Part shown: positions 33,940 through 36,487 of the stretch, piece by piece
Position numbering within the stretch: position 1 is the first letter of the stretch
Layout: each line of letters opens with the position of its first letter
NCBI GenBank assembly: GCA_013388835.1
Contig: JACAEL010000039.1
Span: 1-37,491 of the forward strand
From: Candidatus Thorarchaeota archaeon
GTDB lineage: Archaea; Asgardarchaeota; Thorarchaeia; Thorarchaeales; Thorarchaeaceae
Length of the DNA stretch: 37,491 nt
Reading direction: 5' to 3'
The notes under the pieces: model-generated
What the model was told of the DNA's origin: nothing
The model's input: the letters and a program-made list of their open reading frames with translations, nothing else
The model's database searches: none
Made by a program: the position numbers and the translations under genes

Positions 33940-35277
33940 TTGAAGATCAGAGATGTAGTAGCCGGTGCAAATGCCTCAATCTACTATCGCATGAACTTCA
34001 AACTGATAAAAGGTGTGTTCTACCCGAGGACCGAGAATGATGTCATAGAGGCCATCCGCCTAGCCCAAGAACATGGCTTTGATGTGACCCCGAAGGGCGG
34101 GGGATCGGGTCTCAGTGGAGCATGCACGGGCGGTAACAGGGAACGCATCATCTTGAGCTCACTGCAGATGAAAGAGGTGCTCGGATTCTCCAAGGACCAG
34201 GGCTACGTTGATGTGCAAGCAGGGACAACTCCAGATGAGATCAACGCAGTGCTTCAACCGAGTGGACTACGGTTCTGGGTGGCACCCAGTAGCAGGGACG
34301 TGGCCACGGTGGGAGGAATCCTGAGTACAGATGGCGGAGGCAACGATGCATGGATCAATGGCACTATGCGTGACAACACCCTCAGAGTCAAGATGGTGCT
34401 CTATGATGGTCGGCTCATCGTTGTTGACCACAAGGGGGTGAGAAGCCCTGACAAAGAGCTGGAGGCACAGCTGAACAGCGCAGGAATGACTCTGAATGAT
34501 GTTGCAGGCTCCCATGGGACACTGGGATTCATCACCGAACTGAGACTGGTAGTGAGGCCAGCGAAGACCCAGAAGTTGGTTGGTGGCGTGTCTCACTTCG
34601 CTGACTGTAGCGAGATGGGAAAAGCAATTGACCGAATGGTCCGTGCGAACAGCCCGATTGTCTACGGCGAGGCAATCACGTCAGTGCACGAGGACATAAG
34701 GGGAGAGCTGACACCACCACTACTAATCCTCGAGTTCCCGGAAGCATACGAGCACGAGATTGCAGGCATGTCACAATACACACGATATGACCCCACCGCA
34801 CTCAAGGCTATGAAGGACATCCGACTGAAGCTTCCCAAGCGTAATCCCGTGAGGGGGCGGCAACTCGCCCTCTTCGAAGACTATGGGTTCTATGGGGAGA
34901 GCCTTGTGCACATGCAAGAGAGAATAGATGAGATAGATAATCTGCTTCGCAAACATGAGTTCTAGCCCTTCGCCAAGTACGGTCATGCTCCTAGCAAGTG
35001 GTACTTGGGAGACAACTCTGCAGCCTTCGGGGTCATACTTCACTCAAGGGAGATCAGACCAGAACAGAAGTCTGGAAAGGACATATACCGGGCAGTCCTC
35101 GACATCGTTGAGACCTGCGACAGACTGGGCATAACTCCCAAACCCGAACACAAGTGGCCATACAGCGACCGCACGAAGAACAAGCGACTTCAGCAGCTCA
35201 GGGAGATACTGGGTGGAGGATTCAACGACTTTGTCCTACAGCCCGACTGTAATGAGGTGCTCGGCTCGATGGTGTGA
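33940..35277 (+). pseudogene. GlcD-like FAD-dependent oxidoreductase interrupted by an in-frame TAG
   Basis: The first part (33940-34965, TTG start, strong GGAGGGAG ribosome site) encodes 341 residues with a PCMH-type FAD-binding domain: PKGGGSGLSGACTGG, GTTPDEINAVL, and VATVGGILSTDGGGNDA...GSHGTLGFITEL. After TAG at 34963-34965 the same frame stays open for 104 codons (34966-35277) and encodes PFAKYGHAPSKWYLGDNSAAFGV and a C-terminal region to LQPDCNEVLGSMV, which fits the C-terminal cap of this family. Read through, the product is 445 residues plus the unknown residue, a normal GlcD length. The second part has no good start or ribosome site. It is the catalytic partner of the Fe-S subunit upstream. 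It may be a recent nonsense mutation, an amber readthrough or a split protein. Confidence 0.7.
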
Positions 35278-35315
35278 CCTATCACTGAATACTTTCGGTG
35301 ATGTCTCTGAGGAGC

Positions 35316-35322
35316 TTATATA
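35316..35322 (+). promoter_or_regulatory. TATA box for the Orc1/Cdc6-like gene
   Basis: TTATATA centred at 35319 predicts transcription start near 35345, between the GTG at 35342 and the ATG at 35351. It favours the ATG start. Confidence 0.6.
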
Positions 35323-35350
35323 CTGTCAATAGGACCGAATTGTGATAAAG

Positions 35351-36487
35351 ATGGTTCGCCAGCACAAGACACCACGGGGGCTCTTTGACCCATACTACAT
35401 CCCGGAGAAGCTTCTTTACAGAGAGCGTGAGCTAGAGTCCATTGACTCCTTCCACCGCGACTCGTTTGAGGAGAACTATGGCGTCAACTGTCTCGTTCAT
35501 GGCATAACTGGCGTGGGAATGACGGTCTTCTCAAGATACTTCCTGACGAAGATTGTTCCTCAGGCCTTCGACGCGTATACGGTGTATGTAGATGCGAGAC
35601 ACAAGGAAGACCTTGAGATAGTCTCTGAACTCAACGACAAGATCCATACACTTACCAACAGTCCAATCACTGTCGCCTTCGACCTCGATGTGCTCTGGAT
35701 GCAGTTCAAGAGAATAGCCACGTCAAGCCAGAAGAGAACCGTCTTCGTGCTCGACAACATAGATGAGACCAATGAGGAGATCTATCTCAAGCTGGCAAGG
35801 TTGTCCAAGGAGATAGGAGCCAGCACGATTGGGGTCCTCAACAGCCACGACTACAGAATGCTCACAAAGGCGCCAGCCACCCAGATGGCGTACGACTTTG
35901 AGATACCACTGGACACCTACACCCAGTCTCAGCTGTATGAAATAGTCCGCATGCGCGTGGAGGACACATTTCCCACAGGTCTGACAGACGAGATCGTACG
36001 CTACATAACAGACCTTGTCTGCGAGTTCGACGCCAGCAGACCAAAGACATCGATTGAGGCACTCAAGGCACTATGGCCGCTGGCAAGCCAGGGGAAGGAG
36101 ATAGACTCTGACGCTGTGAGAGCCGCAACCGAGAAGATCACGAGCTTCGCGCAGGACCAAGACTACTTCGAAGTCGTGGAGGCAATCTCACTCGATGACT
36201 TCATGACCCTGTTGGTACTTGAGGCTATGACTGAGCATCTCATGCGCTACAAGACCGAGACCTACATAGACAGGCAGACGCTGAACGAGATTGTTCAGAT
36301 CAAATGTGAAGAGCTCGGCGTAAAGTACCTGGAGGAGGACGTTGAGAAGAGTCTCCAAACCCTCATATTCCAGAGCATCGTCTTTGAGTCGGGTTACTCA
36401 AAGAGCCTGCTGTACGTCATAGCGCCGCCAGAGATACTCTACGATGCAGCAGTTGGTATGCGTCGAGAACTGACAAGAAGAAAGTAG
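35351..36487 (+). CDS. Degenerate Orc1/Cdc6-type AAA+ protein
   Basis: 378 residues. Orc1/Cdc6 proteins bind origins and load MCM using an AAA+ ATPase and a winged helix. This protein has the family outline: a REREL-type helix, GITGVGMT at the Walker A site, VFVLDNIDE at Walker B, a sensor-1-like GVLNSHDY, a sensor-2-like DASRPKTSIEAL and a C-terminal winged-helix region at about 280-375. Two key residues are changed: the Walker A Lys is Met (GVGMT; residue 57 from ATG 35351) and the Walker B Glu is Asn (DN, residues 135-136). ATP hydrolysis is therefore unlikely. It is a single gene; the short region before it has no obvious origin repeats. Another AAA+ subfamily cannot be ruled out. Confidence 0.75.
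   Translation: MVRQHKTPRGLFDPYYIPEKLLYRERELESIDSFHRDSFEENYGVNCLVHGITGVGMTVFSRYFLTKIVPQAFDAYTVYVDARHKEDLEIVSELNDKIHTLTNSPITVAFDLDVLWMQFKRIATSSQKRTVFVLDNIDETNEEIYLKLARLSKEIGASTIGVLNSHDYRMLTKAPATQMAYDFEIPLDTYTQSQLYEIVRMRVEDTFPTGLTDEIVRYITDLVCEFDASRPKTSIEALKALWPLASQGKEIDSDAVRAATEKITSFAQDQDYFEVVEAISLDDFMTLLVLEAMTEHLMRYKTETYIDRQTLNEIVQIKCEELGVKYLEEDVEKSLQTLIFQSIVFESGYSKSLLYVIAPPEILYDAAVGMRRELTRRK

Follow-up and report, generated by a model that had tools for sequence, protein, structure and literature searches.

A Degenerate Orc1/Cdc6 Paralogue of Asgard Archaea Shares a Promoter Element With Orc1-2: A Candidate Pseudo-ORC of a DNA-Damage Regulon

Introduction

Orc1-2 of S. islandicus is a member of the Orc1/Cdc6 family that is not an initiator. 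It recognizes an ANTTTC element located in the promoter of its own gene and in those of other damage-response genes (PMC9738581), and the Orc1-2 network induces orc1-2, tfb3, dpo2 and herA-mre11-rad50-nurA (PMC10470591). A Walker A mutant of this protein loses ATP binding and much of its DNA binding, the corresponding Walker B mutant is inviable, and the wing arginines are needed to bind DNA (PMC9738581). In eukaryotes, ORC2 and ORC3 are degenerate AAA+ subunits that have lost their catalytic residues and are kept beside active paralogues. Among prokaryotes, Asgard archaea are the nearest relatives of eukaryotes known so far. No description of a dead Orc paralogue or of a damage-regulon element in Asgard archaea was found in the open-access literature that was searched, which misses most subscription journals.

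The gene described here belongs to the same Orc fold family as S. islandicus Orc1-2, and its promoter element includes ANTTTC. Unlike the protein of the window, Sulfolobus Orc1-2 has working Walker A and B motifs and a wing arginine, and it binds DNA; the Asgard gene that resembles it is a different one (L220), not the paralogue. The window is the whole stretch of DNA that was analyzed, 37,491 nucleotides forming an entire contig (C39) of a 3.0-Mb thorarchaeal (Asgard) genome. Asgard genome families are labeled f1 to f28, f1 being that of the window genome, and the genomes compared are mostly draft MAGs.

An Orc1/Cdc6 Homologue Beside Two Catalytic Copies

The window protein is a diverged Orc1/Cdc6 homologue. 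Its open reading frame runs from an ATG at 35351 to a stop ending at 36487 and encodes 378 amino acids with no internal stops (Table 1); a GTG at 35342 offers an alternative start. The product matches TIGR02928 with an E-value of 4e-21 and 75.3 bits (74.9 bits in a genome-wide search), below the curated cut-off of 181.3 bits, and a phmmer search of the PDB gives 2qby_A with an E-value of 3.5e-12 and retrieves Cdc6-1 of S. solfataricus as well as Orc1 of A. pernix. Two catalytic Orc1/Cdc6 genes are present in the same genome, at C12:67819-68934 (428 bits) and C6:55259-56350 (293 bits). The second is called Orc1-2 here by its position in the tree, and its orthology to Sulfolobus Orc1-2 is only assumed.

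The gene order in f1 places an Fe-S and FAD oxidoreductase pair upstream of the paralogue and a gcvH-like gene on the opposite strand downstream. The upstream FAD-dependent oxidase gene (33940-35277) has an in-frame TAG at 34963-34965, where its relatives have Thr, Val or Glu; either the gene carries a nonsense mutation or the assembly of the window genome is wrong at this point. At the end of the contig (37201-37491) lie a fragment of a MerR-type HTH (Pfam E about 0.004) and a DINAARN-like stretch recognized by eye, possibly the remnant of an IS607-type transposon.

Table 1. Positions of the features discussed; coordinates without a locus prefix are those of the window.
Feature	Position	Strand	Basis or remark
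Upstream element ATACTTTCGG, then TGATGTCTC; includes ACTTTC = ANTTTC	35289..35298	+	Upstream alignments, pattern searches
TATA box TTATATA	35316..35322	+	17 bp downstream of element; aligned across 24 sequences
Orc1/Cdc6 paralogue, predicted to be ATPase-dead	35351..36487	+	ORF, homology, motifs, fold, tree
Altered Walker A GITGVGMT	35501..35524	+	Met57 codon 35519-35521 replaces Lys
Altered Walker B VFVLDNIDE	35741..35767	+	Asn136 codon 35756-35758 replaces catalytic Glu
C-terminal winged-helix domain, acidic, without basic GRYGRTK-type wing	36164..36484	+	Fold model; sequence charges
Tailed Roadblock/LC7 genes, examples	L061:6328-6912, L098:4859-5566, L104:5408-6910		

Loss of ATPase and DNA-Contact Motifs on an Intact Fold

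Both Walker motifs are altered in the window protein, and the alteration extends through its family. Among f1 orthologues, position 57 is Met, Arg, Ser or Asn and never Lys, and position 136 is Asn or Gly and never Glu. None of the 78 distinct members of the clade has Glu136 (54 have Asn, 13 Asp, and the rest Gly, Ser, Lys or Arg). Lys57 is retained in 32 of the 78, none of these being from f1 or f9, and the Walker A Lys is retained in most families other than f1. The Lys and the Asp-Glu pair are present in 75 of 80 other Asgard Orc proteins. Met57 and Asn136 were considered as invariant residues and rejected; the constant feature within f1 is that neither Lys nor Glu occurs.

Further motifs have been lost. 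The Arg-finger DPRVLSSL and the sensor-2 GDARR are absent from the paralogues in a motif comparison with catalytic Orc proteins, and in the window protein KAPATQ and ASRPKT stand where the two motifs would be. The winged-helix domain has a mean pI of 5.0 in paralogues vs. 8.4 in other Orc proteins, the net charge of the wing is 0.6 vs. 3.5, and the basic residues of wing and recognition helix are gone. From sequence alone, in the absence of biochemical data, it is inferred that the paralogue should lack both ATP hydrolysis and the normal grip on DNA.

The fold itself is predicted to be intact. An AlphaFold2 model of the window protein (pLDDT 87.9, pTM 0.83) superimposes on P. aerophilum Cdc6 (1fnn) with a Z-score of 28.3 at 3.6 A over 354 residues, and the model of a distant f27 member (pLDDT 84.3) does so with a Z-score of 29.3, suggesting that the AAA+, lid and winged-helix arrangement is kept even there. 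The window protein is thus like the archaeal Orc1/Cdc6 initiators (TIGR02928; 1fnn, 2qby, 2v1u) in fold, length and detectable sequence homology; unlike them, it has no Walker A Lys, Walker B Glu, Arg-finger DPRV, GDARR sensor-2 or basic wing, belongs to a separate clade and scores below the TIGR02928 cut-off. In profile comparison with the eukaryotic proteins, ORC1/CDC6 is matched with E about 1e-7, ORC5 with 0.006 and ORC4 with 0.05. Profile and fold searches rank archaeal Orc/Cdc6 best and ORC1/CDC6 next, above ORC2-5. These searches show no special affinity to eukaryotic ORC2-5, which does not exclude a link, as fast evolution could mask one.

The retention of the winged helix leaves room for a rival reading, in which the paralogue is a sequence-specific DNA-binding regulator with a new binding mode, acting for example on its own promoter element. 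The fold and the conserved element in its own promoter (see below) speak for this reading. Against it are the acidic character of the domain, stripped of the basic residues of wing and recognition helix, and the need of Sulfolobus Orc1-2 for both its wing Arg and its Walker A Lys in promoter binding (PMC9738581). We regard it as very unlikely. A preliminary description of the sequence had guessed that the protein might regulate a different DNA locus, and as far as this means regulation by binding, the guess is less supported, the basic wing being lost and the winged helix acidic; as to a regulatory role in general, the shared promoter element described below suggests instead one together with Orc1-2 and repair genes.

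A Separate Clade Under Purifying Selection

Most f1 genomes have an orthologue, at 62-79% identity. A census of 227 Asgard genomes with profile A2, which includes distant relatives (E <= 1e-20), found the family in 117 of them, distributed over f1, f2, f9, f11, f12, f23, f27 and f28. About half of the 227 genomes gave no match with this profile; in many Asgard lineages the paralogue is either dispensable or was missed by the search. The census covers the Asgard phylum only, and we do not claim that the family is Asgard-specific. A single weak match in f22 (L115) was rejected as a member, L115 being a catalytic Orc. Plasmid and viral origins were considered and rejected: the plasmid matches inspected are all ordinary Orc proteins with 22-25% identity, and no relative was found in viral contigs with A2, a weak test that used only one short pattern.

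The paralogues form a clade apart from every catalytic Orc protein of the phylum that was compared. A maximum-likelihood tree of 72 sequences splits 29 paralogues from 43 other Asgard Orc proteins by one branch with a length of 2.1 changes per site and an SH-aLRT support of 100. The paralogues of f1, f9, f11 and f27 each form a cluster; the placement of long-branch extra copies of f2 and of the f28 sequences is less certain. The tree holds Asgard Orc proteins only, and eukaryotic and Sulfolobus sequences were not included. The extra copies, found in some f2 genomes (L117, L118, L119), are very diverged, degenerate and Orc-like.

Between close pairs dN/dS is 0.013-0.061, and the gene is under strong purifying selection. 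A pseudogene or sequencing artefact is ruled out by the orthologues, the dN/dS values and the conservation of the promoter; the absence of Glu from all 78 members speaks against chance or a sequencing error.

These results bear on most of what the preliminary description had claimed. The motifs GITGVGMT (Lys to Met) and VFVLDNIDE (Glu to Asn) hold exactly as it gave them, as does the good TATA box, TTATATA being real and conserved. Its view that the gene is not decaying but is a conserved paralogue without catalytic function also holds, on the strength of the orthologues, dN/dS and the conserved promoter. Its statement that the architecture is otherwise well preserved holds in part: the fold is intact, but Arg-finger, sensor-2 and basic wing are lost. 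It had asked whether orthologues keep Met and Asn, and these are not invariant, f1 merely never having Lys or Glu. Orthologues with both Lys and Glu, or a different predicted fold, would by its own account have refuted it. None of the former exist among the 78, many distant members keeping the Lys and none having the Glu, and the predicted fold is that of Orc1/Cdc6. The normal Orc1/Cdc6 that it proposed to seek elsewhere in the genome was found twice (C12:67819 and C6:55259).

A Promoter Element Common to the Paralogue and Orc1-2

Upstream alignments of nearly all f1 orthologues contain (A/T)TACTTTCGG(T/C) about 17 bp ahead of the TATA box, and the paralogues of f2, f9, f11, f12 and f27 are preceded by similar elements (TACTTTCAGT, TAGTTTCGGTT, TACTTTTAATCACC). 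The spaced pattern of element and TATA box occurs at exactly two sites in the 3.0-Mb window genome, one at the paralogue gene and the other just upstream of Orc1-2. The 36 f1 genomes hold 62 distinct sites, most genomes having only one or two, and 50 of the 62 precede one of these two genes at uniform distances: 27 lie before the paralogue (of 31 genes) and 23 before Orc1-2 (of 34). The element is absent from Orc1-1, the first canonical Orc, and is not clearly visible at Orc1-2 in f2, f9, f11 or f13.

The remaining 12 f1 sites lie elsewhere, four of them before a DUF763-type gene. Several f1 genomes have the element in the promoter of this gene (L271, L272, L273, L275); the assignment rests on a Pfam run with one of them, L271 (E 6.6e-116). 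A repair-linked function is a possibility for this uncharacterized family.

A Wider Candidate Regulon

Sites were also sought with a longer pattern, WTACTTTCGGTNACCTC, allowing one mismatch, in the 227 Asgard genomes. The sites fetched were chosen, with exact matches preferred, and the resulting gene list is not a random sample. In the window genome a site precedes a Y-family polymerase (C2:19601, L305). Others lie before UvrA (L299, L317 and, by similarity, L327), NurA (L324), a HerA-like ATPase (L298), Nre (L309), an RPA-like protein (L313), a helicase (L315), Orc1-2 (L321) and TFB-like proteins (L303, L304, L325), and some before metabolic genes (tRNA synthetase, deoxyhypusine synthase) and a transposon protein. 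With the real pattern, 26 of 41 sites are followed by an open reading frame opening after the site, mostly of long genes; with the reversed pattern as control this holds for 4 of 30, all with frames of 80-110 codons. The element is most numerous in f22, G114 alone having 13 copies. Several of the f22 copies lie close to the end of a contig and one precedes the gene of a TnpB-like protein (L314); some of them may ride on a mobile element.

The promoter element is thus common to the paralogue, Orc1-2 and, across the phylum, repair genes. Its targets are of the same type as those of the Sulfolobus regulon, namely orc1-2, TFB, HerA/NurA and a translesion polymerase. The match to ANTTTC is only six bases long and weak by itself. 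We infer a candidate Asgard DNA-damage regulon with the gene list above, for which no expression, damage-induction or binding data from Asgard archaea were found in the accessible literature.

A skeptical reading would take the ACTTTCGGT element for a general feature of strong promoters, the sharing of which says nothing about function. The sites before metabolic genes are in its favor. Against it, most f1 genomes have one or two sites only, 50 of 62 are at the two orc-type genes, the other targets include many repair and replication genes, and the reversed control behaves differently. There is very little to recommend it.

A Roadblock Neighbor in Several Families

In f9, f11, f12, f23 and f27 the paralogue is divergently transcribed from an adjacent tailed Roadblock/LC7 gene (Table 1), the product of which belongs to an Asgard-wide family and has a long, variable linker rich in Pro and Glu that ends in a conserved helix motif, EExALLEALxAL, at the C-terminus. 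Because this adjacency spans five families, a functional and perhaps physical link between the two proteins is suggested. One f28 genome has the same divergent pair, which looks like contamination from f11. The tailed gene lies elsewhere in the genome in f2, occurs in f3 and f4, where no paralogue was detected, and is apparently lacking in f1; in neither f1 nor f2 is it adjacent to the paralogue. Outside the divergent pair, the promoters of tailed Roadblock genes do not carry the element. Rag- or Ras-like GTPases adjoin the paralogue in some f2 and f27 genomes; as a general rule this was rejected, the adjacency being local. A deoxynucleoside-kinase-like gene adjoins the tailed Roadblock gene in f2 and the pseudo-Orc/Roadblock pair in f27 (L158, L161, L162, L104), and kinase-like, Roadblock and pseudo-Orc genes may once have formed an older cluster that was broken up in f2.

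Roadblock domains commonly work with small GTPases. The paralogue could therefore be an adaptor of Roadblock/small-GTPase signaling that merely borrows the Orc fold, its promoter link to repair genes being secondary. The divergent neighbor in five families and the adjacent GTPases in some f2 and f27 genomes support this rival. It is weakened by the lack of adjacency in f1 and f2, by the apparent absence of the neighbor from f1, by the local nature of the GTPase association and by the conservation of the element even where the Roadblock neighbor is missing. We consider it unlikely.

Proposed Role

The reading that we prefer, at a probability of about 0.55 for the explanation as a whole, is that the product of the gene is an ancient pseudo-enzyme of Asgard archaea with the Orc1/Cdc6 fold, a pseudo-ORC of an Orc1-2-type damage regulon that works through protein contacts, the mechanism being inferred. 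On balance we favor a part in the DNA-damage response over a direct role in starting replication, in the absence of Asgard expression data. In the preferred reading, the Asgard element would be the counterpart of the Sulfolobus Orc1-2 damage-response element, and DNA damage would switch on the paralogue gene together with Orc1-2, for which there are no induction data. Less surely, since ATP hydrolysis and the usual grip on DNA are expected to be absent, the paralogue would act through contacts with other proteins, serving a catalytic Orc as partner or as brake. Orc1-2 would be the most likely candidate, without a modeled interaction to support it; its Sulfolobus relative is lethal when ATP hydrolysis is blocked (PMC9738581). 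In several lineages the paralogue may also act together with the tailed Roadblock protein, an inference of the same lower confidence.

The main rival makes the paralogue a structural, non-ATPase subunit of a heteromeric ORC that sits with Orc1-1 at origins, like the degenerate Orc2 and Orc3 of eukaryotes. In its favor are the full AAA+/lid/winged-helix fold, the conservation beside catalytic Orc proteins and the ability of archaeal Orc proteins to pair on DNA (2qby heterodimer). By analogy, the window protein is indeed like ORC2/ORC3 in having an Orc fold, lost ATPase residues and active paralogues beside it; it is unlike them in that the searches revealed no closeness in sequence or fold other than membership of the Orc family, and there is no evidence of common origin. 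Further points against this rival are the lack of special affinity to ORC2-5 by profile or fold, the sharing of the element with Orc1-2 and repair genes and not Orc1-1, the distance of more than 1.2 Mb between the paralogue and both canonical orc genes in a one-contig genome (G020), and the lack of a match in about half of Asgard genomes. It is improbable in our view. Neither an origin subunit unrelated to damage nor a Roadblock/GTPase adaptor can be dismissed, and both remain possible.

A bolder version of the pseudo-ORC reading, put forward only as a possibility, is an Orc-type damage switch of two proteins, in which a catalytic Orc1-2 would be the transcription regulator and a co-regulated Orc partner, ATPase-dead and not binding DNA, would tune or end the response, with wiring to Roadblock/GTPase signaling in some lineages. 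If true, such a switch would be an Asgard division of labor between active and pseudo-ORC, parallel to that of the eukaryotic origin-recognition complex.

Implications

It has not been settled how a single archaeal Orc1/Cdc6 became a six-part eukaryotic machine in which active ATPases stand beside dead ones. The occurrence of a dead Orc paralogue across much of the Asgard phylum indicates that a separation of catalytic and non-catalytic Orc proteins took place in the archaeal relatives of eukaryotes too, without a common origin with ORC2/3 being shown. The shared element provides a testable candidate for an Asgard DNA-damage regulon, which would extend to these archaea a control system worked out in Sulfolobales.
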